NCBI RefSeq assembly: GCF_006874425.1
Contig: NZ_VIJZ01000005.1
Span: forward strand, 310,001-374,000
Direction: 5' to 3'
Length of the DNA: 64,000 nt
Source of the DNA: Paenibacillus ottowii
GTDB taxonomy: Bacteria > Bacillota > Bacilli > Paenibacillales > Paenibacillaceae
Part shown: piece after piece, positions 17,985-29,734 of the stretch
How the letters are laid out: the number at the start of each line of letters is the position of its first letter
How positions within the stretch are numbered: the stretch's first letter is position 1
Notes under the pieces: generated by a model
Databases searched by the model: none
The model's input: only the letters and a program-made list of their open reading frames with translations
What the model was told of the DNA's origin: nothing
Position numbers and translations under genes: made by a program

Positions 17985-18872
17985 TCACTTTGGGGAAGAC
18001 AGCCCTTTTAAACTCTCCAACATGATTGTGACTGCCAGTAAATCAGCGGAGCCACCAGGACTAACATTTTGCTGCACAAAATCATCGTTCATCTGATGAA
18101 TCATGGCGACACCTCTTTCAGACAAGATACCGCCCGCCTCTAGCACCTGCTTGGCATATTGCTGGACATAGGCTAGCATCTCCCGGTCGTGTCTGCCAAC
18201 AATATTCGTATCTTCGTTGACAACCATCAGTTGTAAGAGTGTTTGAACACAGATATCATTCACGTGGTAACATTGTGATGAATTCAACTTACGATAGATG
18301 GGCAGAGCATACGCTCGCACGGTAGGAAAGCCTGCTTCCACCTCGCCACGTATGCCCATCATCCCCCACTCCTTATACAACCGTTCGCCGACCGTTAAGC
18401 CTGTTGATTTTTTTAGGGATGCAAGCTCTCTCGCACATAAACCTTTGGTCATCTGAGCAATGGTCTTACAAATGACTTGTTCATCCAGCCTGCTAACAAT
18501 TGCTCGTGTCGTACAACAATACGCGGCGGCGGCACAAATAATACCTAGCGAAAAAATAAGACCTTTATGTGTGTTTACCCCACCAGTTGCGGCAAACATA
18601 GCCCGTTCCGCTTCCTGTCCCAAAGGGCGCAGGTTCTCAAATAGTATACGGAGATCCTGTCCATGAAAGGAATCTCCCGCCTTTGCACATCTTTCAAAAT
18701 AGCCGGAAAGTGAGGCCGCACTAGACATAAACGTAAAGAAGTCCATATCCTTGTGGGCACCACGATCCAATCGGTCTACCAGTCCCGGTTTTGGGCTGGC
18801 AGAGACTTCTGTTAGCAGCGCAAGGACAGCCTGTTGAGCAAGGCTTTCACTTAATAGGCTTGTTGGCATCAT
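17985..18872 (-). CDS. citG: Triphosphoribosyl-dephospho-CoA synthase CitG
   Basis: Makes 2'-(5''-triphosphoribosyl)-3'-dephospho-CoA from ATP and dephospho-CoA, the precursor of the citrate lyase prosthetic group. The 295-residue protein has the family pattern ASPKPGLVDRLDRGAHKDMDFFTFM (about residues 23-47) and the GVNTHKGLIFSLG motif (about 98-110). The start chosen is ATG 18872 with GAGGAG upstream; the open frame runs further up into citX but that part is unrelated. It is a separate gene, not fused to CitX as in some lactic acid bacteria. It is last in the operon, directly before a strong terminator. Confidence 0.94.
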   Translation of the reverse strand: MMPTSLLSESLAQQAVLALLTEVSASPKPGLVDRLDRGAHKDMDFFTFMSSAASLSGYFERCAKAGDSFHGQDLRILFENLRPLGQEAERAMFAATGGVNTHKGLIFSLGIICAAAAYCCTTRAIVSRLDEQVICKTIAQMTKGLCARELASLKKSTGLTVGERLYKEWGMMGIRGEVEAGFPTVRAYALPIYRKLNSSQCYHVNDICVQTLLQLMVVNEDTNIVGRHDREMLAYVQQYAKQVLEAGGILSERGVAMIHQMNDDFVQQNVSPGGSADLLAVTIMLESLKGLSSPK

Positions 18873-18888
18873 AGTTGCTCCTCGCCGT

Positions 18889-19431
18889 TCATACTCGTTT
18901 GACCACTTGACGGTTTCGCATATAACTGTCCACCAGTGCTTTGATAGCTTCCAGTAATTTGGGAAGTTCGTGCGCTCTACTCCGTCCACATATATGCGCA
19001 GCTTGCCCGCACATGAGGCATTTTCGCTTGTCCAGGCCAAGCTCATCTCTGGAGATTGCCCTTCCATTGGGTCCAATCACATCCAGATCCAGTAATCTTC
19101 CTAGTGGATGTTCATTTTCAATCGCAATGGCCCACTTTTTCAATATTTGTGTGTCTGCCTGAACGGCAATATATGCTTCTGGACCTGTCGGCAGATGATA
19201 CGCTTCACGGTGCAGCGGTGTCATTTGGTTCACTGCCAGTTGACACATCAAGATACGGTAGCCTTCATGAAAAACGTATTTACTAGTTGGAGAGGACTTC
19301 TGTGGTCCTGGGATATTGATCGTCATGCTGAGCAAAGGTACCGCGTACCTGCTGATCAGCTGTCTTTGTCTGTTTGCCCGGTTTTCGCGTGCCTGTAGCA
19401 TTTCCTCAAGGGTAACCTCATACGAATACAT
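18889..19431 (-). CDS. citX: Holo-citrate lyase synthase CitX
   Basis: Transfers the phosphoribosyl-dephospho-CoA group made by CitG onto a serine of the acyl carrier subunit CitD. The 180-residue protein shows the conserved ENRANRQRQLI near residue 14, the GP..K/Y region, and the signature LGLDKRKCLMCGQAAHICGRSRAH (about 130-153) with its clustered cysteines. The start ATG 19431 lies one base after the citC stop codon and uses AAGGATG inside the end of citC, so it is translationally coupled. Cytoplasmic. The order citC-citX-citG supports the assignment. Confidence 0.93.
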   Translation of the reverse strand: MYSYEVTLEEMLQARENRANRQRQLISRYAVPLLSMTINIPGPQKSSPTSKYVFHEGYRILMCQLAVNQMTPLHREAYHLPTGPEAYIAVQADTQILKKWAIAIENEHPLGRLLDLDVIGPNGRAISRDELGLDKRKCLMCGQAAHICGRSRAHELPKLLEAIKALVDSYMRNRQVVKRV

Positions 19432-19432
19432 G

Positions 19433-20479
19433 TTATGACATCCTTCTAATACGCCTGATGATTTCTCCAGCTTCCCCTGACAATAAAAACCGATAGGTTG
19501 TGTCCGGTACAAGCTGCTTCACTTTTTCCATGTGACCCAGACGAATATATTTACGAACTGCAGAGGCGCTAATGGCCTCCCCTTCCCGTAGCAATCGCGG
19601 TATTTCCTCTACGTCGATTCCAGTGGAAGGCAGTAATTTTTTCATGATCGTGTTGTACCTTCGGGTCAAGACACAGTTTGGCTCCTGACCAATATACCGT
19701 TTTTTAATATTTAGCAATGGAGCCATATACTGGATAAAAATTTTTAAATCAAGTGATATATGCGTGCTTGCCGCGTCTTCATCATTTTTAAAGAAGTAAG
19801 AAGGAAACGTTGCGCCGGAGATGATATAGTCTTTGCCTTTGTGCAGGACCACATTGTCCAAATGCCTCACGCCTTCTTCAACTAGTCTGTATCTAACAGC
19901 TGATGGAAAAATGGATCGATCCTCCCAGACTACAAACAGATGTACCTTTTCCCAAACCGCTGCTGCATACTCGACTAAGTGCAAATGTCCCAATGTGAAT
20001 GGATTACAGTTCATGACAATCGTAGCCGAAGGCACGAGATCGCCCGATTCCTGCAAAAGCTCTTGCTGATACTGCCTGACACCATCCCAACGGTTTTCCA
20101 ACAGGACAGCCTTGAAGGATTCCTCCACGATTGGATAAAAGCCAAGATCCTTGAAAATTTGTTTATTTAGTGGCTTTGTATAAATAAACAGGTGATCCCT
20201 TCCCCGCCTATATTCTTCATTTACTAAATGGCTAACAATTTGTGCAGATAGCCCCTGATTTTTATAAGCTTCATCCACAGCAATACACTTCAGTACACTG
20301 CCTGAAAAGGAACCCGTAGCGGCAATGTCGCCGCCATCTACAATTTCCATCGTATATTCAATTGGATGGTCTATTCTAAGACCTTGGCGCTTAAGGAAAT
20401 CGCGAAGCTTTCTTTGAGCGTCTTCAGAGGCTGGATTTATAATCTCTTCACGCAAATGTTCCATCCACATAGCCATCAT
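19433..20479 (-). CDS. citC: [Citrate (pro-3S)-lyase] ligase CitC
   Basis: Acetylates the thiol of the citrate lyase prosthetic group with acetate and ATP, activating the enzyme. The protein of about 348 residues has an N-terminal GNAT-like domain (about 30-125, with VDEAYKNQGLSAQIV). A nucleotidyltransferase domain follows with MNCNPFTLGHLHLVEYA (about 155-172; the T-x-GH adenylate site) and the C-terminal REGEAISASAVRKYI. Several starts are possible between 20485 and 20464; ATG 20479 behind CGGTGAT is chosen without strong preference. It lies 24 bp after the malic-enzyme-family gene. Confidence 0.92.
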   Translation of the reverse strand: MMAMWMEHLREEIINPASEDAQRKLRDFLKRQGLRIDHPIEYTMEIVDGGDIAATGSFSGSVLKCIAVDEAYKNQGLSAQIVSHLVNEEYRRGRDHLFIYTKPLNKQIFKDLGFYPIVEESFKAVLLENRWDGVRQYQQELLQESGDLVPSATIVMNCNPFTLGHLHLVEYAAAVWEKVHLFVVWEDRSIFPSAVRYRLVEEGVRHLDNVVLHKGKDYIISGATFPSYFFKNDEDAASTHISLDLKIFIQYMAPLLNIKKRYIGQEPNCVLTRRYNTIMKKLLPSTGIDVEEIPRLLREGEAISASAVRKYIRLGHMEKVKQLVPDTTYRFLLSGEAGEIIRRIRRMS

Positions 20480-20503
20480 GATCACCGTTTTTTCTCGATG
20501 GTT

Positions 20504-21676
20504 TTATTTTCTTACGACACCGCTTTGTTCTGCGACGATTTTTACTGCTTTACTAACCGCAGCACTTACTCTTTTGTCAATCGCATCTGGAACGATATAG
20601 GTATCGTCAAGTTCCTCATCTGTTACCAGAGCTGCGATGCTTCTGGCCGCCGCTAATTTCATTTCCAGCGTGATGTCCGTAGCTTTGGCATCAAACGCGC
20701 CTCTGAAAATACCGGGGAATGCCAGCAGGTTATTGATTTGGTTGTGAAAATCCGATCTGCCGGTCGCAACAATTCGTGCTCCGCCTTTGTATGCTTCCTC
20801 CGGCAAAATTTCTGGAATCGGATTGGCAAGGGCAAAAATGATGCTTTCATTGCTCATGGTTTGCACCATTTCTTTGGTCATCACATCTGCAACCGATAAT
20901 CCAATAAAGATGTCCTTGTCCTTGATGACTTCTGCAAGGCTGCCGGTTTCTTTATCACGATTCGTCAGCTTGGCAATTTGCTGCTGAGGCTTATTGAGAG
21001 AGGTGTCTCCTTCGACCAGGGCACCATTTATATCGCAGAGAACCATATGCTTTGCTCCTGCAGCGAGCAATAGCTTGGCGGTGGCGATCCCCGAAGCTCC
21101 CGCTCCATTGATGAGAATTCGCACATCCTCCACTTTTTTGCCCACAAGTTTCAAGGCGTTCAATAACCCTGCAAGCACAGCAACTGCCGTTCCATGTTGA
21201 TCATCATGATAAATCGGAATGTTCAGTTTTTCTTTTAATTTGTCTTCAATATAAAAGCATTCCGGGGCCTTGATGTCTTCAAGATGAATGCCTCCAAAAC
21301 CTGGGGCAATTACTTCAACCGTGCGCACAAACTCGTCTGGATCAGTGGTGTCGATACAAATAGGGAACGCATTCACCCCACCAAATTCTTTGAGCAACAA
21401 GGCCTTGCCCTCTATGACAGGCAGCCCTGCCTCGGGGCCAATATCCCCCAGGCCCAGCACTGCTGTCCCATTCGTCACAATCGCTACGCTGCTCCCTTTA
21501 ATCGTGTATTCATAGGCTTTGCTCTTATCTTTGGCGATTTCCTTGCATGGTTCGGCAACACCAGGTGTATAGGCTATCGCTAAGTCCTGTTTACTTACAA
21601 CCGGTACTGTTCCTGTAATCTCCAGTTTACCGTTTCTAAGGCGGTGTGCCTGTAAGGCGGCTTCTTTTATACTCAT
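20504..21676 (-). CDS. Malic-enzyme-family protein, probable oxaloacetate decarboxylase of citrate pathway (CitM/MaeA-like)
   Basis: A 390-residue member of the short bacterial malic enzyme family. Catalytic and metal residues are present: Tyr36 (AIAYTPG), the lysine pair in EGKALLLKEFGG (about 91-96), and HDDQHGT (157-163). The nucleotide-binding GAGASG lies at 191-196. Family enzymes decarboxylate malate with NAD(P), and the CitM branch in lactic acid bacteria decarboxylates the oxaloacetate released by citrate lyase. The position between citF and citC points to the latter role, but sequence alone does not decide. ATG 21676 has no ribosome site; GGGGAGG lies at 21717-21711, about 35 bases upstream (see findings). 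Confidence 0.88.
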   Translation of the reverse strand: MSIKEAALQAHRLRNGKLEITGTVPVVSKQDLAIAYTPGVAEPCKEIAKDKSKAYEYTIKGSSVAIVTNGTAVLGLGDIGPEAGLPVIEGKALLLKEFGGVNAFPICIDTTDPDEFVRTVEVIAPGFGGIHLEDIKAPECFYIEDKLKEKLNIPIYHDDQHGTAVAVLAGLLNALKLVGKKVEDVRILINGAGASGIATAKLLLAAGAKHMVLCDINGALVEGDTSLNKPQQQIAKLTNRDKETGSLAEVIKDKDIFIGLSVADVMTKEMVQTMSNESIIFALANPIPEILPEEAYKGGARIVATGRSDFHNQINNLLAFPGIFRGAFDAKATDITLEMKLAAARSIAALVTDEELDDTYIVPDAIDKRVSAAVSKAVKIVAEQSGVVRK

Positions 21677-21730
21677 AAGTTTGTTCGTACTGAGCAGTTG
21701 CTCAATACTTCCTCCCCTTGGTTTATAATT

Positions 21731-23290
21731 TTAGCGTCCTTGTTTCACTTGACGAATGACATCAATTACAGAACCATCACGATATTTAACAACACCTACA
21801 ATTTTATCTTCCCATTGTATCGGCTCCGGTTTGCCGACAATCCATGTTGCCTTCTCTTGCATCTCTTCGATCGTGAAGACAGGGAGCTTGGCTGCTTTTA
21901 AGTTAGCCAGGAGATCTTGGCGGGTAGGGTTCACAGCGATGCCTTGATCCGTAACAAGTACGTCAACCGTATGGCCTGGTGTGATAATGGTATTGACACG
22001 ATCAAGAATAGCAGGCATTCTTCCGCGAATCAGCGGAGCGACGATGATCGATACTGCAGCACCTGCGGCAGTGTCGCAGTGTCCGCCGGAAGCTCCCCGG
22101 ATGATCCCATCAGACCCGGTAATTACATTCACATTAAAATTCAAATCAATCTCCAGCGCACTCAGCACAACAACATCCAGTTGGTGAGCAGCACAGCCTA
22201 TATTTTCAGGGCTTGCATAATATTCCGCACAAATTTGTTGATGGAATTTATTCTTTCTCAGCGATTCTACAGCACGCAGGTCAAAGCTCTGCACGTCCAA
22301 AAGCTTTTCAATCAATCCTTCTTCATGCAGGTCAACGATTTGTTGGGTAATCCCCCCCAGGGCAAAGCCTGCTTTGATATTGGCGGCAAGCATTTTTTCC
22401 CGCAGAAATCTGGTTGTTGCAAGCGAAGCCCCCCCGGACCCGGTTTGCAATGAGAAACCATCCGTGAAATATCCGGATGCTTCAATCACATCTGCCGCGT
22501 TTTTAGCAATTAACAGTTCCTTCGGATTCTTGGTGTAACGGGTAGCCCCTGAGACAATCCCCTTCTGATCACCGATGCGATCCACGACGACCACATAATC
22601 CACCAGAGTTTCAGGAATGGCGAATGGAGTGTTCGGATAAGGGACCAAATGGTCAGTAATCATCACAACATTGCGCGCATACTGTGCATCTACCATGGCA
22701 TATCCCATGGAGCCGCATGCCGATGGAGCTTCGTTTATGCTGCAAGTTCCGTTTGCATTGCCGTATGCATCGCAAGAAGGAGCGCCCAAAAAGGCGACGT
22801 CAATCGGGCATTCTCCTGATGCAATCGCTCTTGCGCGGCCACCGTGAGAGTTAATCGTCACCGGAATATCAAACCATCCATAGGAGTATGCCTGAGCCAG
22901 CTCACCTCTGAGGCCACTGGTCTCAATTCTGCGGATGACACCGTTTCGCACGTGCTCTATCAATGGGGCATGGATATCTGTCAAGGAGCTAGCTGCCAGG
23001 ACAAGATCACGAATCCCCATTTTGGCGATTTTATCCATGACCCTATTCACGATAAAATCCCCATTGCGAAAATGGTGGTGGAAGGAGATCGTCATCCCAC
23101 TGCGCAAGCCAGTAGCTTCAATGGCCTTCTCTATCGAATCAATGATTTTATTTTGGGCAGGATTTTGCTGGCGGTCTTTTAACCGCTCTGTATTTTTAAA
23201 TTGCCCGTAAGTCGATTTGCGATCAAAGGGAGTTACCGCATCAAGTCCTTCAATAGCTAAAGGAATTTCTCTCCCAGCACCGTTTAGCAT
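21731..23290 (-). CDS. citF: Citrate lyase alpha subunit (citrate CoA-transferase)
   Basis: Exchanges acetate for citrate on the acyl carrier subunit, forming citryl-ACP. The 519-residue protein contains TISFHHHFRNGDFIVN (about 70-86), the repeated CoA-transferase glycine-rich segments such as AFLGAPSCDAYGN, and GSDGIIRGASGGHCDTAAGA (about 393-412). Length matches CitF of other bacteria (about 505-520). ATG 23290, five bases after AAGGTGA, is chosen; GTG 23299 is the alternative. It follows citE by about 10 bp. With CitD and CitE it forms the citrate lyase complex, which splits citrate to acetate and oxaloacetate. Confidence 0.96.
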   Translation of the reverse strand: MLNGAGREIPLAIEGLDAVTPFDRKSTYGQFKNTERLKDRQQNPAQNKIIDSIEKAIEATGLRSGMTISFHHHFRNGDFIVNRVMDKIAKMGIRDLVLAASSLTDIHAPLIEHVRNGVIRRIETSGLRGELAQAYSYGWFDIPVTINSHGGRARAIASGECPIDVAFLGAPSCDAYGNANGTCSINEAPSACGSMGYAMVDAQYARNVVMITDHLVPYPNTPFAIPETLVDYVVVVDRIGDQKGIVSGATRYTKNPKELLIAKNAADVIEASGYFTDGFSLQTGSGGASLATTRFLREKMLAANIKAGFALGGITQQIVDLHEEGLIEKLLDVQSFDLRAVESLRKNKFHQQICAEYYASPENIGCAAHQLDVVVLSALEIDLNFNVNVITGSDGIIRGASGGHCDTAAGAAVSIIVAPLIRGRMPAILDRVNTIITPGHTVDVLVTDQGIAVNPTRQDLLANLKAAKLPVFTIEEMQEKATWIVGKPEPIQWEDKIVGVVKYRDGSVIDVIRQVKQGR

Positions 23291-23300
23291 AACACTCACC

Positions 23301-24182
23301 TTACTCTACGTTTATTTTTGCCGCTTCCGCCAGATCAAGTACTCTGCGTGCACGTTCTACAATCGGACGGTCAATCATTTTACCGTCGAGACTGATCACA
23401 CCTGAGCCATTTGCCTCCGCTTCGAGGCTGGCCTCAATGATCCGCTTTGATTTTTGGATCTCTGTTTTTGTCGGCGTATAGATGCGGTTTACAATCTCGA
23501 TCTGACGTGGGTTAATAATGGATTTGCCGTCAAAGCCCAGCTGTTTGATCAACTTCACCTCGTTAGCAAAGCCCTCCTCATTATTTACATCTGAGTAGAC
23601 TGTATCGACAGCAGCAATGCCAGCAGCTCTTGCCGCAAATAGTATAAGGCTTCGTGCTGTCAATAGCTCAATGCCTTCTGGCGAGCGCGTTGTCTTCAAG
23701 TCTGTGACGAAATCCTCCGCTCCAATGGCGATGCCGATTAGTCGCTTGCTGGCAACCGCAATTTGCGCTGCATTCAATGCGCCCTTACCACTCTCAACCG
23801 CTGCAAAAAGCTTGATCGTCCCAAGCTCCATGCCGATCTTTTGTTCAATTCCGGTAATCAATTCATCCGCCTCCATCACATCATCGGCGGTCTCTGTTTT
23901 CGGTAATCGAATAGCAGTTGGCTTCGCTCGTACAATCGCTTCAAAATCGTCTCTGCCGTATGGCGTATTGAGCGGGTTGACCCTGACCAGCACCTCGATG
24001 CCTCCGAAATCAAAGGTTTTCAAAGCCTGGTAAACCAGCAAACGTGCTGCATCTTTTTCGTATAGGGAAACGGAATCCTCAAGGTCGATCATAATCGAAT
24101 CTGCCCCATAGATATGGGCGTCCCGGATCATCCCTGGGTTATTCCCGGGTACATACAACATGGTCCTTCTCAGTTTCTGCAT
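23301..24182 (-). CDS. citE: Citrate lyase beta subunit (citryl-ACP lyase)
   Basis: Cleaves citryl-ACP to acetyl-ACP and oxaloacetate in a Mg-dependent reaction. The 293-residue TIM-barrel protein begins with the family signature RRTMLYVPGNNPGMI and has DSIMIDLEDSV (about 28-38; acidic metal site), VRVNPLNTPYG (about 67-77) and IGIAIGAEDFVTDL (about 149-162). It is full length. Its ATG follows the citD stop codon directly, with GGAGGCG at the end of citD as ribosome site. This tight coupling suits a fixed subunit ratio. Confidence 0.96.
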   Translation of the reverse strand: MQKLRRTMLYVPGNNPGMIRDAHIYGADSIMIDLEDSVSLYEKDAARLLVYQALKTFDFGGIEVLVRVNPLNTPYGRDDFEAIVRAKPTAIRLPKTETADDVMEADELITGIEQKIGMELGTIKLFAAVESGKGALNAAQIAVASKRLIGIAIGAEDFVTDLKTTRSPEGIELLTARSLILFAARAAGIAAVDTVYSDVNNEEGFANEVKLIKQLGFDGKSIINPRQIEIVNRIYTPTKTEIQKSKRIIEASLEAEANGSGVISLDGKMIDRPIVERARRVLDLAEAAKINVE

Positions 24183-24476
24183 CTATTCCGCCTCCCATGG
24201 TCGGCAGCCACCCTCGACCACTCTGTTTACGGCTGTCATGACTCTAGCTTTAATGGCACAATCTAGTGCCCCTTTATCATTCGCTTGGACATATGCGTGT
24301 TCAATGCCCATTTCTTGTAATGTTTCGAGAATCACTTTGCGAATCTGGTTCCCAAACTGGTTCTCTACCGTACTTTTTAACTCGATTTCAATCCCCTTCG
24401 TGCCGTTCGGCTCAATGGAAATCATAATATCGCTTGATTCCAGTGTGCCGGCCATGCCTACTTGCTGAATAATCAA
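24183..24476 (-). CDS. citD: Citrate lyase gamma subunit (acyl carrier protein)
   Basis: A 97-residue carrier protein holding the phosphoribosyl-dephospho-CoA prosthetic group on which acetyl and citryl groups are exchanged. The attachment region AGTLESSDIMI is intact, with Ser14 (or Ser15) as the modified serine by analogy with Klebsiella CitD. The C-terminal ALDCAIKARVMTAVNR is also typical. Translation starts at TTG 24476, eight bases after AGAGGTG. It lies 45 bp after the sensor kinase gene and directly before citE, so kinase and lyase genes appear to share a transcript. Confidence 0.94.
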   Translation of the reverse strand: MIIQQVGMAGTLESSDIMISIEPNGTKGIEIELKSTVENQFGNQIRKVILETLQEMGIEHAYVQANDKGALDCAIKARVMTAVNRVVEGGCRPWEAE

Positions 24477-24521: not shown

Positions 24522-26765
24522 TCAGGATTGCAGAACCTTATAAATCATTTGTGCCATATCTGAACCTGCTGCAGGCTTACACATATATTCATCAATGATC
24601 AATCTCTCCTTGTATGCCACCACATGATCCTCGACGTAACCGGTAATCAGGATAATCTTCATACTTGGATTGATTACCTTGATACGTTCAGCCAATTCCG
24701 TACCCGTCAGATAAGGCATAGCCTGATCCGTAATGACCAGATCGTAGTGGTTTGGAGACTTTTCAAACCGCTGTAATGCTGCCATGCTGTCTACTTCTGT
24801 CTCAACCTGGAAACCATACAATTCCAGCCCTTTTCTCATCGCTTTCAACACACGCTGTTTATCATCGACCAGAAGGATGCGCTTTTGTTCAGTAAACACA
24901 GGGCTCTTATCGATCTCTGTATCTTTGGCTACAAACTCCGTTTTCGGCAGATATACCGTAAAGGTACTACCCTTGCCCAGCTCTGAATCCACGGCAATAA
25001 ATCCTTGATGTTTTTCGAGAATGCTTTGAACGATATACAATCCAAGCCCCGTACCCTCTCCTGCCGGTTTGGTTGTGAAAAAAGGATCAAAGATTTTCTG
25101 CAAGGTTTCGTCACTCATCCCTTTGCCCGTATCGGAAACAGATAAAGTAACGTAATCGCTGACTTCCAGAACGCTCTCCCGGATTTTTTTCACTTCTTTC
25201 AGGGGCATGGTATCCAATATAATTTTTAGTTCGCCCCCGGTTGTTTTCATAGCTTGATAGGCATTGTTGCACAGGTTCATAATGATTTGATGAATCTGTA
25301 CTTTATTTGCAAAGATAACGGCTGACTCTACCTGTTTTTTGAACACAGCTTTCACGCTGGGCGAGAGAAAGGATTTTATGAGTCCCAGCGCTTCTTCGAC
25401 CTGCTCTTCTACTTTGACCGGAGCGTTTTTCTTGACCTTCCCACTCTCCAGCCTGCTCAATAGCAGGATTTCCTCGATTATTAATCTTGCATTCTCGGAA
25501 GCATCATAAATCTCACTGACGTAATCATAAATTTCTTCAGTAGGTTCTATACTGCTGAGCATAATTTCTGCATAACCTTTGATAGGAGTCAAAAAATTAT
25601 TGAAATCATGAGCAATTTCCCCTGATAGCGTGCCGATTAACTGTAGCTTTTGCGAGTGCTGCAATTGAAGGTCCTTTTTCCGGAGCAGCTCGTTTTTGTT
25701 ATTCAGTTCCCGCAAATATCTTGTCTCATATTCCAAAGCCTCTTTATTTTTCTTCGTCTTCATGATGATATAAACGGCACAAGCCAACGTCAGGACGATC
25801 ATAGAAAAGATTTCAATGGTTTTAGTTCGATTTCGTGCAATCGGTTCTCTCACATCTTCGTAGTTCATGGCCGCGGCCACCACCCAAAACGAGTCACCCA
25901 GATGAACACGGGAAAAGGCCTCAATCTTTTTCGTCTTGGTATAGCATTCGTCCCCCCACCAATACGAATGGTAGAAAGCTGAGCCTTGTTCCTGGGTAAG
26001 CTGCATTTTGAACAGTTTTTCCAGATCGCCGTAATCAAGCCCCGGGTGTTTGTCCTTCATCGCTGATAGCGATAGCCCGATATTTTCTTCGCTTGGGTGC
26101 ATGAGATAGTGGCCTTGCTGATCCTTGACATGAATATAACCCTTGCTCCCAACACGAATCGGCTTCAACAGCTTCTCATACACCGCGTTTAGATTTACCA
26201 CACTGATCAGCGCACCTTGAAATTTCCCATCAAGATAAACAGGCTGAAACAGATGCACAATATAATTGCCTCGCCTCTCCAGCTTGGCCCTTGCGATGAA
26301 CGGTTTTTTTTCTCGCAGCATCCTTTGAATATCATCCTTGATAAATTCATAGGCTTTAATCGCATCTGTACGATTGCGCTTCGGAAAAGTGTGTACTACT
26401 CTTCCTTCCAGGTTCACCTGGCTAATCTGATAAATGCTATCTTTTTTGGCGGTATAATAAGCAGATAGGTTTTCGTCAATCACAGTTTCATTTTTATTGG
26501 ATATGGCGAGCGACATCTGCTGGTTTCCTGCTAATATTTGCAGGGAGTGCATTTGTTCGTCGAAAAAGGACTCAATAGACATGCTGTTTAACTTGGCAAT
26601 CGTCAGCAATTGCTGCTGCTGTTGTTCAATTACGGTACGTTCTCCGTCCATATACGAGCCATAGGCCATCCATAGAAGAACTAGAAAAGAAATCGGAAGC
26701 ACTAGCATAGTGAGAAATGAAAAATGGCTTCGATAATGAAATAGTATCTCTCGTGAACATCTCAT
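24522..26765 (-). CDS. Cache-domain hybrid histidine kinase with C-terminal receiver
   Basis: A 747-residue membrane sensor. Parts in order: membrane helix about 16-36; extracellular double-Cache domain about 45-310; second helix about 318-337; short coiled coil; HisKA with phospho-accepting His386 in GEIAHDFNN; and HATPase with N-box [10 protein letters not shown] (497-506), DTGKGM (545-550) and GEGTGLGL (569-576). A receiver domain follows with Asp634/635, acceptor Asp680, Thr708 and Lys730, all present. The AHDFNN type and attached receiver resemble proteobacterial hybrid kinases rather than CitA. It precedes citD in the same operon, so citrate or a related acid is the likely signal (inference). 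No HPt domain is seen. Confidence 0.92.
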
Positions 26766-26847: not shown

Positions 26848-26883
26848 GTTATTCACGTTCGCCTACTAAATGGTGTCTCAAGA

Positions 26884-26947
26884 CAACTTCATTGTAATAA
26901 CAAGATCTTAAAGTACCCTGTAAAATTATTAATTTTTTTTAAGATTT
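26884..26947 (-). repeat. Conserved 64-bp element, copy B (upstream of kinase-lyase operon)
   Basis: Nearly the same sequence as 28411-28474. Key parts are ATTGTAA (26891-26897), ATCTTAAAG (26905-26913), CCCTG (26916-26920) and TTAAGA (26939-26944). TCTTAA and TTAAGA form inverted arms 33 bp apart. CTTAAA at 26907 is followed 21 bp later by ATTAAT. Probably the binding site of the cluster's response regulator (inference). Confidence 0.7.
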
Positions 26948-26954
26948 CACCACT

Positions 26955-28304
26955 TTAGTGTGTAAGGTATCGCAGCAGGAAAATAGCAAGTGTTACCGTT
27001 GCTGCTCCCCCGAGACGGGTGGATACCTGGGCAAATGGCATGAGTACCATTCTATCGGCTGCAGAAAGAATCGCAACATCCCCTGTTCCACCTTGGCTGC
27101 ATCGAGTAGAAGTTATAATCGCGGCTTCAACTGGGTACATTTTCATCCACTTGCCAGCAAAATATCCACCCACAACCACAGCTAATACAGTTACTAAAAT
27201 GGTGATGAAATAAGCAGGGCTAATTACAGAAATCAGTGCCTCCCATGGTGTTTTGGCTACACCTACGGCAAGCAGAAGCGGGTACGTTACAGCGATAACA
27301 AAGAAACGTTGCATTTGTTGCGCTCCATCTTCAAGGAATTTTGGCAACCAGCCAAAATATTTTGCCAAAAATGCCGCAAAAAGCATTACAATCGGACCAG
27401 GTAGACCAACAAACTCAGCGGTTAAGGTACCTAACATGAAGAACCCGAAAGCTAAAATTGCTCCAGCGGCCATTTGGTAAAGATCAAGCGGCTTTTTATT
27501 TTTATCCTCTGCAAGTCCCAAAACATCGCTATCCCCTGTTTTGAGTAGCGTGCCGTTACCAGTAAGCTCCGGTCTTCTATCTCCCAGTTGTTTCAACAAG
27601 CCGGACAAAATAATAGCACACAAGCTACCCAGCATGACCGCAGGAATAACCATGGCAAATTGCTCACCTTGAGTCGAACCCAAAATTTGGCTGTAGCCGA
27701 TAGAGAGTGGAATTGCACCTTCACCAACGCCTCCAGCCATGATAGGAACAAGAATGTAAAACAAGGTATCATACGCTGAGATTCCTAAAGCCACACCTGT
27801 AAGCAATCCGACGCCTGTTCCGACAATAGATCCGACCGCCAAAGGGACTGCCAATCTAACGACCGCTTTGATCATGAGTTCCCGGTTCATGCCAAGGATA
27901 CTGCCAGCGATAACAATTGCGATGTACACATACAGAAAATTGGTATTATCCATAAAAACAGTAACAGAATCAATGGCTGACTGCGGGAGAAGATGAGCAT
28001 ACACCATGTATGAAGGTACAAACGTTGCCATAATTGCAGCGCCGCCGATATCCTTTAGAATAGGGATGCGCTTTCCGATTTCCGCCAGAATAAAGCCATA
28101 TAAGACCATGACAGATACAGCCCCAGGCATATCACTAGCGAGCTTTCCAGTGTTCATCAGCATGTAGACAACAGCCATAAACGGGATATAAAGGCCTACA
28201 GGAATGACTCCTCCAATCTTGTAATTCAACACCTTTTGCCATTTGGACTCTGTTGGCGGCTGTAGCTTAAGTTCTGCGGCTTCTTGTAGATTATTAGTGA
28301 CCAC
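26955..28304 (-). CDS. 2-hydroxycarboxylate transporter (CitS/CimH-type citrate or malate symporter)
   Basis: A 449-residue secondary transporter of the 2HCT family, which takes up citrate or malate with Na+ or H+, or exchanges it for lactate. Both reentrant-loop GG motifs are present: AGGVGEGAIPLS (about 190-201) and QGGTGDVAILSAADRM (about 405-420), the second followed by PFAQVSTRLGG with the substrate-binding arginine. About 11 membrane helices fit the sequence. It starts at GTG 28304, eight bases after AGGAGG. The citrate lyase genes downstream make citrate the likely substrate; coupling ion and exchange mode cannot be told from sequence. Confidence 0.93.
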   Translation of the reverse strand: MVTNNLQEAAELKLQPPTESKWQKVLNYKIGGVIPVGLYIPFMAVVYMLMNTGKLASDMPGAVSVMVLYGFILAEIGKRIPILKDIGGAAIMATFVPSYMVYAHLLPQSAIDSVTVFMDNTNFLYVYIAIVIAGSILGMNRELMIKAVVRLAVPLAVGSIVGTGVGLLTGVALGISAYDTLFYILVPIMAGGVGEGAIPLSIGYSQILGSTQGEQFAMVIPAVMLGSLCAIILSGLLKQLGDRRPELTGNGTLLKTGDSDVLGLAEDKNKKPLDLYQMAAGAILAFGFFMLGTLTAEFVGLPGPIVMLFAAFLAKYFGWLPKFLEDGAQQMQRFFVIAVTYPLLLAVGVAKTPWEALISVISPAYFITILVTVLAVVVGGYFAGKWMKMYPVEAAIITSTRCSQGGTGDVAILSAADRMVLMPFAQVSTRLGGAATVTLAIFLLRYLTH

Positions 28305-28410
28305 TTCATCGCCTCCTAGATAATCAATCTGCTTTTATCCTCGAATCAATCGCTCGCCCGGGTTTTTACAAGATTTTCAGTAACGCTCTCGCTCATTGGA
28401 TGATTCGAGA

Positions 28411-28474
28411 TAACTAAATTGTAAAAAGTAAATCTTAAAGTATTCTGAGTAATCCTTAAATGTTTTTAAGAATC
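28411..28474 (-). repeat. Conserved 64-bp element, copy A (upstream of transporter gene)
   Basis: Matches 26884-26947 at 28 of the first 37 positions, and the rest is also alike. ATTGTAA (28418-28424), ATCTTAAAG (28432-28440), TTCTG (28443-28447), a second CTTAAA 21 bp on (28455), and TTAAGA (28466-28471) occur at the same offsets. It lies about 107 bp before the transporter start, close to the 119 bp of copy B before the kinase gene. Confidence 0.7.
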
Positions 28475-28487
28475 CTGTGACAAAAAT

Positions 28488-28503
28488 ATGTCAGCGCTTT
28501 CAA
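28488..28503 (+). promoter_or_regulatory. Catabolite-responsive element (cre) for CcpA
   Basis: ATGTCAGCGCTTTCAA fits the consensus WTGNNARCGNWWWCAW at every position. It sits 14 bp beyond copy A of the 64-bp element, upstream of the transporter gene. Catabolite repression of citrate uptake by preferred sugars is the expected effect. Binding itself is inferred. Confidence 0.65.
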
Positions 28504-28601
28504 AAACAAAAAGTCATGATTTGTGTGAGGGTGATGCCACGCCCCAAAGTTATGTATCCCCTTTTATACCTAAAATAGAGATGGTGTTAAAAATCATCAC
28601 C

Positions 28602-28632
28602 TATAAAAAAAGCTCCCCGAACCATCGGGGTG
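28602..28632 (-). terminator. Terminator of the response regulator gene
   Basis: On the minus strand CCCCGA/TCGGGG with loop TGGT and an outer GC pair, followed by TTTTTTT. It separates the regulator gene from the transporter gene. The 28305-28676 gap thus holds terminator, cre, element A and transporter leader. Confidence 0.85.
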
Positions 28633-28676
28633 CCTTCGAGAGAGCGTATACAATTAGACAGAAGTATAGAGTTAAT

Positions 28677-29375
28677 CTATCTTTCAACGGAAAAACGATA
28701 TCCGATTCCCCAAACGGTTTTGATATATTTCGGATTCGTGGGATTTTCCTCAATTTTGGTGCGCAGGTGCCTGATATAAACCATAATCGTATTATTATCG
28801 ACAACCGTATCATTCCAGATGTTTTGATATAGCTGTTCTTTCGAGAAAACCTGATTGGGGTGTTCCATAAAAAATTTCATAAGTTGTAATTCTTTTGATG
28901 ACAACGCGATTTCTTGATTATTTTTTTGAAACGTAAAGGTATGATGATTGAATAGAAATGGTCCCAACGCAATGCGCGAAGCTTGTTGTTTTGATTCCTG
29001 AAGCTGGCGATATCTTTTAATCTGGTTCTTTACCTGAGCACAAAGCACAGGAGGACTAAACGGCTTGGTAATATAGGCATCTGCCCCAAGTCCAAGTCCA
29101 ATGATCTGATCTGTGTCTTCTTTTTTCCCGCTCAGAAAAATGATTGGCGTATGGATGCCCATATTACGTGATTGACCTAGCACATCATAGCCATCCATAT
29201 CTTCCATCATAATGTCCAAGAGGACGAGATCGAATGGTTCCTCGCTAATCATCCGCATCGCTTCCGTGCCATTTTCAGCCTGAAGCACAACCATCCCATC
29301 GGCTTCAAGAACTGTTTTAATCAATTTTCTAACAGCCCTTTCGTCATCAACGACCAATACTCTCGGTTTGCTCAT
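28677..29375 (-). CDS. OmpR/PhoB-type response regulator of the citrate cluster
   Basis: A 232-residue two-domain regulator. The receiver (1-120) has Asp10/Asp11, phosphoacceptor Asp54 (LLDIMM), Ser82 and Lys104. The DNA-binding winged helix (about 130-230) shows LSSKELQLMKFFMEHPNQVFS, the recognition helix VDNNTIMVYIRHLRTKI, and the closing VWGIGYRF. Complete and typical in length. It is the first gene of the citrate region and likely controls the transporter and lyase operons through the repeated 64-bp element (inference from position and from the TTAAA half-sites). Known citrate regulators of Klebsiella are of a different class (CitB, DpiA-like). Confidence 0.9.
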   Translation of the reverse strand: MSKPRVLVVDDERAVRKLIKTVLEADGMVVLQAENGTEAMRMISEEPFDLVLLDIMMEDMDGYDVLGQSRNMGIHTPIIFLSGKKEDTDQIIGLGLGADAYITKPFSPPVLCAQVKNQIKRYRQLQESKQQASRIALGPFLFNHHTFTFQKNNQEIALSSKELQLMKFFMEHPNQVFSKEQLYQNIWNDTVVDNNTIMVYIRHLRTKIEENPTNPKYIKTVWGIGYRFSVER

Positions 29376-29734
29376 TCTTCTTAGCCCATTCCTTTCTAAA
29401 AAGTCCTCCTACGAAAACCCTTTATATCAACACAAAAAACATAGCTTTACTATTTATAACCAACATTTTTCAGATATTTGCTATATAAATGAGTTTATTC
29501 TCGCTTCTCATGTTCACCTTTTAGTCTAGCATCATTTTAACTAATCCTATATGTTGTATGTCATACAAGTTAAAAAAACTAAATCCTTGTCAAATATCTT
29601 TGTAAATCCTTTTCATTAATATTTTGGAAAAAATTTTTATCTCACTTGTTGTTGTGAGTGAACATCTACCTCATGGTTCAGTGAAATTGATCTTCCCTGC
29701 CCTTTCATGAGGCAACAGCGATCGGAGGATCATA
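29376..29734 (-). promoter_or_regulatory. Upstream region of response regulator gene with palindrome
   Basis: This AT-rich spacer holds a perfect interrupted palindrome TTGTATG-T-CATACAA at 29554-29568. It also has a direct repeat of AAATCCTT at 29581 and 29604, each followed by similar bases. A TTGACA lies between them on the minus strand without a well-spaced -10. The left end also contains the regulator's ribosome site. No gene is seen. Confidence 0.45.
29628..29658 (-). terminator. Weak terminator after ABC exporter gene
   Basis: CTCAC (29641) and GTGAG (29654) form a short stem with an 8-nt loop, followed on the minus strand by ATAAAAATTTTTT. It is about 80 bp after the ABC gene. Confidence 0.45.

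Follow-up and report, generated by a model that had tools for sequence, protein, structure and literature searches.

What is the role of a sequence of about 70 nucleotides that occurs twice among the citrate genes of Paenibacillus ottowii, and which protein recognizes it? In this soil bacterium, a control element of that size fronts both the citrate importer gene and the citrate-breakdown genes. The element was analyzed in a window of 64,000 nucleotides (the whole stretch of DNA under study) and was followed into related genomes.

The citrate gene cluster and its candidate regulator

The genes considered here are all encoded on the minus strand. The gene for an OmpR/PhoB-family response regulator, the presumed binder of the element (28677-29375), is followed by a gene for a 2HCT-family (citrate/2-hydroxycarboxylate) transporter (26955-28304; PF03390, E 6e-145), by the gene for a dCache hybrid histidine kinase (24522-26765; dCache_1, HisKA, HATPase_c, and Response_reg), and by citD, citE, citF, a malic-enzyme family gene, citC, citX, and citG (17985-24476; Pfam matches). 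The transporter gene is the putative target of one copy of the element (copy A) and the kinase gene, the first after the other copy (copy B), that of the second. The citrate:cation symporter model TIGR00783 also matches the transporter, below its cut-off, and the malic-enzyme family gene probably encodes an oxaloacetate decarboxylase. Between the regulator gene and the transporter gene, a terminator-like hairpin with a T run (28615-28630, minus strand) would act as a boundary, a signal that is weak alone (one found vs 2.1 expected in shuffles).

The regulator combines a PF00072 receiver with a PF00486 winged-helix Trans_reg_C domain, which places it in the OmpR/PhoB family; its best NCBIfam models are of VanR, PhoB, and YycF type, all below cut-off. 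The stretch NTIMVYIRHLR(T/M)KI, which we take to be the recognition helix from its position in the family, has a single variable residue in the 13 of 13 regulator orthologues, and the linker is 47-70% identical between clades. Such a conserved recognition helix fits a single conserved operator, yet it is usual for the family. Systems of the CitAB/CitST type have a kinase and a regulator of the citrate family, and the present pair is of another kind, with a dCache_1-HisKA-HATPase-receiver kinase and a regulator of OmpR/PhoB type. The kinase, regulator, and transporter found here are of other protein families than CitS, CitT, and CitM. No HPt domain was detected in the 10 cluster proteins scanned; the hybrid kinase has its own C-terminal receiver.

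A promoter module repeated before two genes

A sequence-only reading of this DNA had described a duplicated element of 64 bp. The duplication is real (28 of the 37 leading bases and 46 of all 64 are shared), and the motifs ATTGTAA, ATCTTAAAG, CTG, and TTAAGA recur at equal offsets in both copies, but the element is better bounded at 67 nt. A repeat search of the window aligned 28405-28471 (copy A, before the transporter gene) with 26878-26944 (copy B, before the hybrid kinase-citDEF operon), both on the minus strand, with 50 of 67 bases identical (75%). The best 67-nt match in 1000 dinucleotide-shuffled pairs of the two intergenic regions (372 and 189 nt) had 39 identities, with a mean of 32. 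The distances of 107 and 119 bp to the start codons, also given in that reading, agree with the ORF list.

In 5′ to 3′ order on the minus strand, the module consists of TCTTAAAA, TTTAAG (ATTAAT in copy B), CAG, TACTTTAAGAT, TACAAT, and a conserved start region. The distal half-site TCTTAAAA of copy A lies at 28464-28471 and, together with the middle half-site TTTAAG (28455-28460), corresponds to an 18-bp dyad whose symmetry is complete in the more distant genomes G146, G149, and G278; in the proximal half-site TACTTTAAGAT (28432-28442), TTAA is 21 bp away from the middle half-site, and the −10-like hexamer TACAAT is located at 28418-28423, a position kept in distant relatives. The corresponding features of copy B were read at 26937-26944 (distal, TCTTAAAA), 26928-26933 (middle, the weaker ATTAAT), 26905-26915 (proximal, TACTTTAAGAT), and 26891-26896 (TACAAT). 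Two points go beyond the earlier description: a third half-site lies between the two arms that it named, and ATTGTAA is the reverse complement of TTACAAT, the −10-like hexamer. The repeat continues past this hexamer to the presumed transcription start. Since it spans both the half-sites and a TACAAT at the −10 place, it reads as operator plus core promoter, with the whole module duplicated. The sequence TACTTTAAG was identical in all 23 element copies read, and the −10 position in distant relatives is occupied by TATGAT, TACACT/TACAAT, or TACGAT at a fixed distance from TACTTTAAG.

A promoter scan called no sigma-70-type promoter on the minus strand for either copy, indicating that neither has a good −35; on the plus strand the scan gave one match inside copy B, and its 9 matches in all were not above shuffles. 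If transcription starts 7 nt below TACAAT, the half-sites would span about −60 to −21. As in operators of the OmpR/PhoB type, the sites take the place of a poor −35 or overlap it, and the −10 is located downstream.

Arrangement of the half-sites

The recurrence of TTAA at 21 bp, which the sequence-only reading had observed in both copies, held on re-reading and was reinforced by a self-similarity analysis of five element-class representatives, one each, where the strongest peaks among 20 offsets were at 21 bp (z 3.4) and 10 bp (z 2.3). These peaks indicate that the half-sites share one helix face, and repeated half-sites with such helical phasing (10-11 or 21-22 bp) are characteristic of OmpR/PhoB operators. 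Because TTAA is self-complementary, half-site orientation is ambiguous; the middle and proximal half-sites form a direct repeat, and the distal one is inverted or ambiguous. The same reading had taken TCTTAA and TTAAGA as inverted arms 33 bp apart. Both are present at that distance, measured start to start, but as the main symmetry this arrangement was rejected in favor of a dyad in the distal part combined with a direct repeat at 21 bp. In G146, the dyad of the distal 18 bp is perfect (p 0.0008, 5000 mononucleotide shuffles), and the middle site recurs as a direct repeat in the proximal one. The best 18-bp distal dyad was no better than shuffles in copy A (p 0.66) or copy B (p 0.23).

Conservation of the module within Paenibacillus

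A kinase orthologue was present in 8 of 75 Paenibacillus genomes; the element (≤3 mismatches) was found exactly twice in each of these eight and was absent at that threshold from the other 67. Named contigs bearing the kinase belong to Paenibacillus terrae, P. maysiensis, P. brasilensis, P. farraposensis, and Paenibacillus sp. BJ-4. A scan of named genomes yielded 52 loci, 5 with full-length kinase orthologues and 47 that match the kinase core only. In a separate search, regulator matches of 95-100% identity were obtained in 4 of 59 relatives, all among the eight, the next best match being 44% identical. The kinase orthologue of the P. maysiensis contig (G069; loci L036/L041) carries one in-frame TAA, apparently near its very end.

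Comparison of 54 operator and −10 columns across the eight genomes showed 49 invariant columns in copy A and 50 in copy B, with mean pairwise divergence values of 4.2% and 1.9%, respectively. The remaining leaders below the elements diverge by 8.7% (A) and 8.6% (B), and the sequence just above them by 19.7% (A) and 13.4% (B). For comparison, third codon positions of the transporter gene diverge by 11.9% (six genomes), and first and second positions, at 3.3% and 1.1%, vary as little as the element does. The gap between the regulator and transporter genes ranges from 361 to 1964 bp across the eight genomes, and the element keeps a near-constant distance to the start codon. This gap (28305-28676 in the window; also L002, L003, and L039-L043) is poorly alignable, as if insertions or replacements had been frequent.

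Association of the element with the two-component system

Two models were used for searches in other genera, one made from the genus copies only (R1) and one from genus copies plus G146-type sequences (R2). R1 found one element before the transporter gene in each of G146, G149, and G278 (E 1.4e-9 to 8.7e-9), which carry a syntenic cluster with a regulator 68-70% and a kinase 52-53% identical to those of the window. No element was found before the kinase gene in these three genomes, in which the aligned start of the kinase lies 71 to 103 nt after the aligned end of the transporter. The distal half of their elements is a perfect 18-bp dyad, and their −10 is TATGAT. R2 found two copies in each of G281 and G287 (E 5.5e-10 to 5.2e-7), one before the transporter gene and one before the kinase gene. 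The regulator (71%), the kinase (54%), and the lyase genes of these two genomes are orthologous to those of the window, and the transporter is another 2HCT protein, 28-30% identical; this exchanged transporter is encoded in the citrate cluster at L168 8191-9543 and at the equivalent place in L169. Of the 13 genomes with elements, eleven either supplied sequences to R2 or closely match ones that did, and G281 and G287 did neither; independent finds are G146, G149, and G278 in the R1 search and only G281 and G287 in the R2 search.

Of the 394 family genomes, 13 have a kinase orthologue (E≤1e-120); in a scan whose filters can lose weak sites, the element (E<1e-6) occurred in these 13 and in none of the others at that threshold. 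Absence of the pattern before the orthologous genes of relatives, which would have spoken against the sequence-only reading, was not observed: the element precedes the transporter gene in 13 of 13 of these genomes and the kinase gene as well in 10. The next matches had E values of 3.5e-4 and worse; 60 of the 394 genomes had a match at E≤0.1, mostly partial and single, and among the three loci fetched for weaker matches only L172 had matches to cluster proteins (a regulator paralogue at 38.9% and a kinase fragment at 24%). The exact core CAGRNTACTTTAAG occurred 24 times in the 13 genomes, corresponding to the 23 cluster elements and one site inside an ORF (G149 contig 2). Its backward control occurred five times in the same genomes, so that one stray core match is to be expected.

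A generic feature of 2HCT promoters was rejected as an explanation, since no element was found at E≤5 at eight other 2HCT loci fetched out of many more (L140-L147, to which the window's genome contributed its second 2HCT gene and G063 its second copy). With the kinase as query, a class-wide sample of 398 genomes returned only the window's own genome, and viral contigs gave no match. The element of G281 and G287 has been kept with an orthologous regulator and kinase next to a different transporter, indicating that the operator stayed with the two-component system through an exchange of the transporter. Judged by these comparisons, the element tracks the two-component system, not the transporter.

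The promoter of the regulator gene itself has no element, as an R1 scan of the window (E≤5) gave only copies A and B. Upstream of that gene, two 22-nt direct repeats, 77% alike and 23 bp apart (29580-29624), hold AAGGATTTA on the minus strand and are possibly the regulator's own control site.

A predicted cre site and a dyad at the presumed start

The consensus of cre, the site bound by CcpA, is TGWAANCGNTNWCA. A predicted site with no mismatch to it, TGAAAGCGCTGACA, lies at 28489-28502 on the minus strand and starts 39 bp upstream of copy A. According to the alignment, 7 of the 8 genus genomes have retained it, and G063 has lost it. No cre (≤1 mismatch) was found near the three copy B sites checked of eight, nor near the three G146-type elements; in G281, one cre with a single mismatch occurs at 104 bp within the region of the transporter copy. 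A near-identical form of the consensus is given in PMC3198936. In the passages of PMC3463425 on Bacillus subtilis, cre sites above the −35 are taken to activate, but in the lev operon LevR, the activator, is blocked by CcpA bound upstream of the promoter. Blocking of the latter kind would suit an activator-dependent citrate promoter.

A short dyad was also read at the presumed transcription start. In copy A this is TATCTCGAATCA (28401-28412, minus strand), which is degenerate, with 6 of 12 positions palindromic; in copy B it is TGTCTTGAGACA (26874-26885, minus strand), with 10 of 12 palindromic and no variation in the eight genomes. Full symmetry (12/12) was found in TGTCTCGAGACA of G146, G149, and G278 and in TATCTCGAGATA before the G287 kinase gene; TATCTCGAGATC of G281 reaches 10/12, and the site before the G287 transporter gene only 2/12. 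The dyad lies around TCTCGAGA, with equivalents in L137-L139, L168, and L169; some relatives have it in perfect form, with a paired change. Judged by eye as an RNA hairpin, this dyad offers about four pairs.

Proposed regulation and alternative readings

The most probable reading, in which we have good though not full confidence, is that of a duplicated promoter module at which the adjacent OmpR/PhoB-type regulator binds the phased TTAA half-sites and activates transcription of both the transporter gene and the kinase-citrate lyase genes. The dCache hybrid kinase would sense external citrate or a related acid and phosphorylate the regulator. The phosphorylated regulator would then occupy the TTAA-cored half-sites (TCTTAAAA, TTTAAG, TACTTTAAG), phased at 10 and 21 bp upstream of the −10, as tandem dimers ending at the −35 region, and would recruit RNA polymerase in a class II-like activation. 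The transporter and the kinase-citrate lyase operon would be induced together, the former through copy A and the latter through copy B; with the kinase gene itself under copy B, a positive feedback is predicted. CcpA acting at the upstream cre may add carbon catabolite control to the transporter copy. The maintenance of the element next to a replacement transporter of only 28-30% identity indicates the adjacent regulator as the binder. On the other hand, the element always adjoins the regulator gene, so the co-occurrence is also compatible with another DNA-binding protein confined to these lineages. Overall, the comparative evidence lends good support to the regulatory reading, with a mechanism ordinary for its kind, and the element is most likely a docking site where the sensor-regulator pair turns citrate use on.

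A citrate promoter with two inputs is conceivable, and we hold it only tentatively: its operator would be mixed, with an inverted distal dyad and a half-site two turns away, and a second protein would act at the start-site dyad. Such an operator might differ from the usual all-tandem PhoB-type box and might belong to an undescribed two-component lineage, a proposal we regard as rather doubtful. Equally tentative is the view, part of the same reading, that the symmetry of the start-site dyad has been maintained through paired change (TGTCTCGAGACA vs TATCTCGAGATA).

The neighboring regulator might instead bind the element as a repressor that is released when citrate is present. There is a precedent in the relevant part of PMC4513871, where TctD counteracts PhoB-dependent activation at shared Pseudomonas promoters, and the half-sites come close to the −10. 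However, they stop above it, and the absence of both a good −35 and a called sigma-70-type minus-strand promoter is as expected for activator-dependent promoters, so that we consider repression unlikely.

A regulator of more general scope (e.g., for oxygen, phosphate, or nitrogen) could read the element in place of the neighbor. AT-rich sites are common for OmpR-family regulators, and the window's genome has other members of the family (9 matches to the regulator at E≤1e-40, itself included). Nevertheless, further sites would be expected for such a protein, and none outside the cluster reached E<1e-6 in the 394 family genomes, where weak ones were possibly filtered; the element is likewise missing (≤3 mismatches) from 67 of 75 genus genomes and, where the transporter has been exchanged, it has persisted with the orthologous regulator and kinase. 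In light of this distribution, a general regulator seems quite improbable.

Lastly, two similar copies 1.5 kb apart could stem from a repeat of mobile or structural nature, or from a segmental duplication of recent date that has no regulatory role, but this reading can be practically dismissed, given that each of eight genomes has exactly two matches (≤3 mismatches) at near-constant start-codon distances, that the copies change more slowly than their flanks, and that they recur at the same places in other genera.

The favored reading, activation by the adjacent regulator, provides a concrete predicted operator for a citrate-cluster regulator outside the CitAB/CitST type, and comparative genomics adds a case in which operator and two-component system stay together as the transporter is exchanged. 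Within this bacterial family the operator could be used to predict the regulon, and it could serve as a candidate promoter inducible by citrate; the general understanding of such regulators is unchanged. No description of this system or operator was found in the open-access literature searched, a coverage that leaves subscription journals mostly outside, and the earlier claim of an undescribed operator holds for that literature.

Comparison with known systems

A close parallel in design is offered by the Klebsiella citS/citC region with CitA-CitB, whose divergent promoters are bound by CitB, as presented in the sections of PMC2735749 that concern it. There, as proposed here, a two-component system encoded in the cluster switches transporter and lyase operons together, and a site for a catabolite regulator is present as well, CRP in Klebsiella and cre in the window. 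CitB also binds A+T-rich DNA, according to a title in the reference list of PMC2735749. Unlike the divergent citS/citC promoters, the cluster described here has its genes in one direction, with an OmpR/PhoB regulator, a dCache hybrid kinase, and a repeated operator at two separate promoters (PMC2735749). In Bacillus subtilis, the gene for the citrate transporter CitM is under two-component control by CitST, as is proposed for the transporter gene here (PMC11880625, in the portion dealing with this system). The citM promoter region carries a cre at +46 in the account of PMC3463425, whereas the cre described here is upstream of the presumed activator sites.

Pseudomonas offers a case of tricarboxylate transport tied to a regulator of the same family, TctD of the TctD-TctE pair. 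A DNA motif for TctD is present in promoter regions; the regulator acts on opdH-tctCBA as well as on its own gene and has promoters in common with PhoB (passages of PMC4513871). With respect to operator geometry, the tetrachloroethene regulator RR2 of Sulfurospirillum is similar: its site CTATW-N17-CTATW consists of direct repeats two turns apart with a third copy between them and overlaps the −35 (PMC7755780, in the part describing this site). Sequence and pathway are different, and binding was demonstrated there by gel shift, whereas the operator described here is predicted (PMC7755780). Another OmpR-family member, VicR, uses direct repeats with a 5-bp spacer, as described in the corresponding text of PMC4168254. 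Finally, the lyase and transporter operons of the Enterococcus faecalis cit genes, with CitO and CcpA, are activated by citrate and repressed through cre, in line with the regulation suggested here; their regulator CitO is GntR-like and no two-component system (PMC3198936), in contrast to the sensor-regulator pair that accompanies the module in the window.
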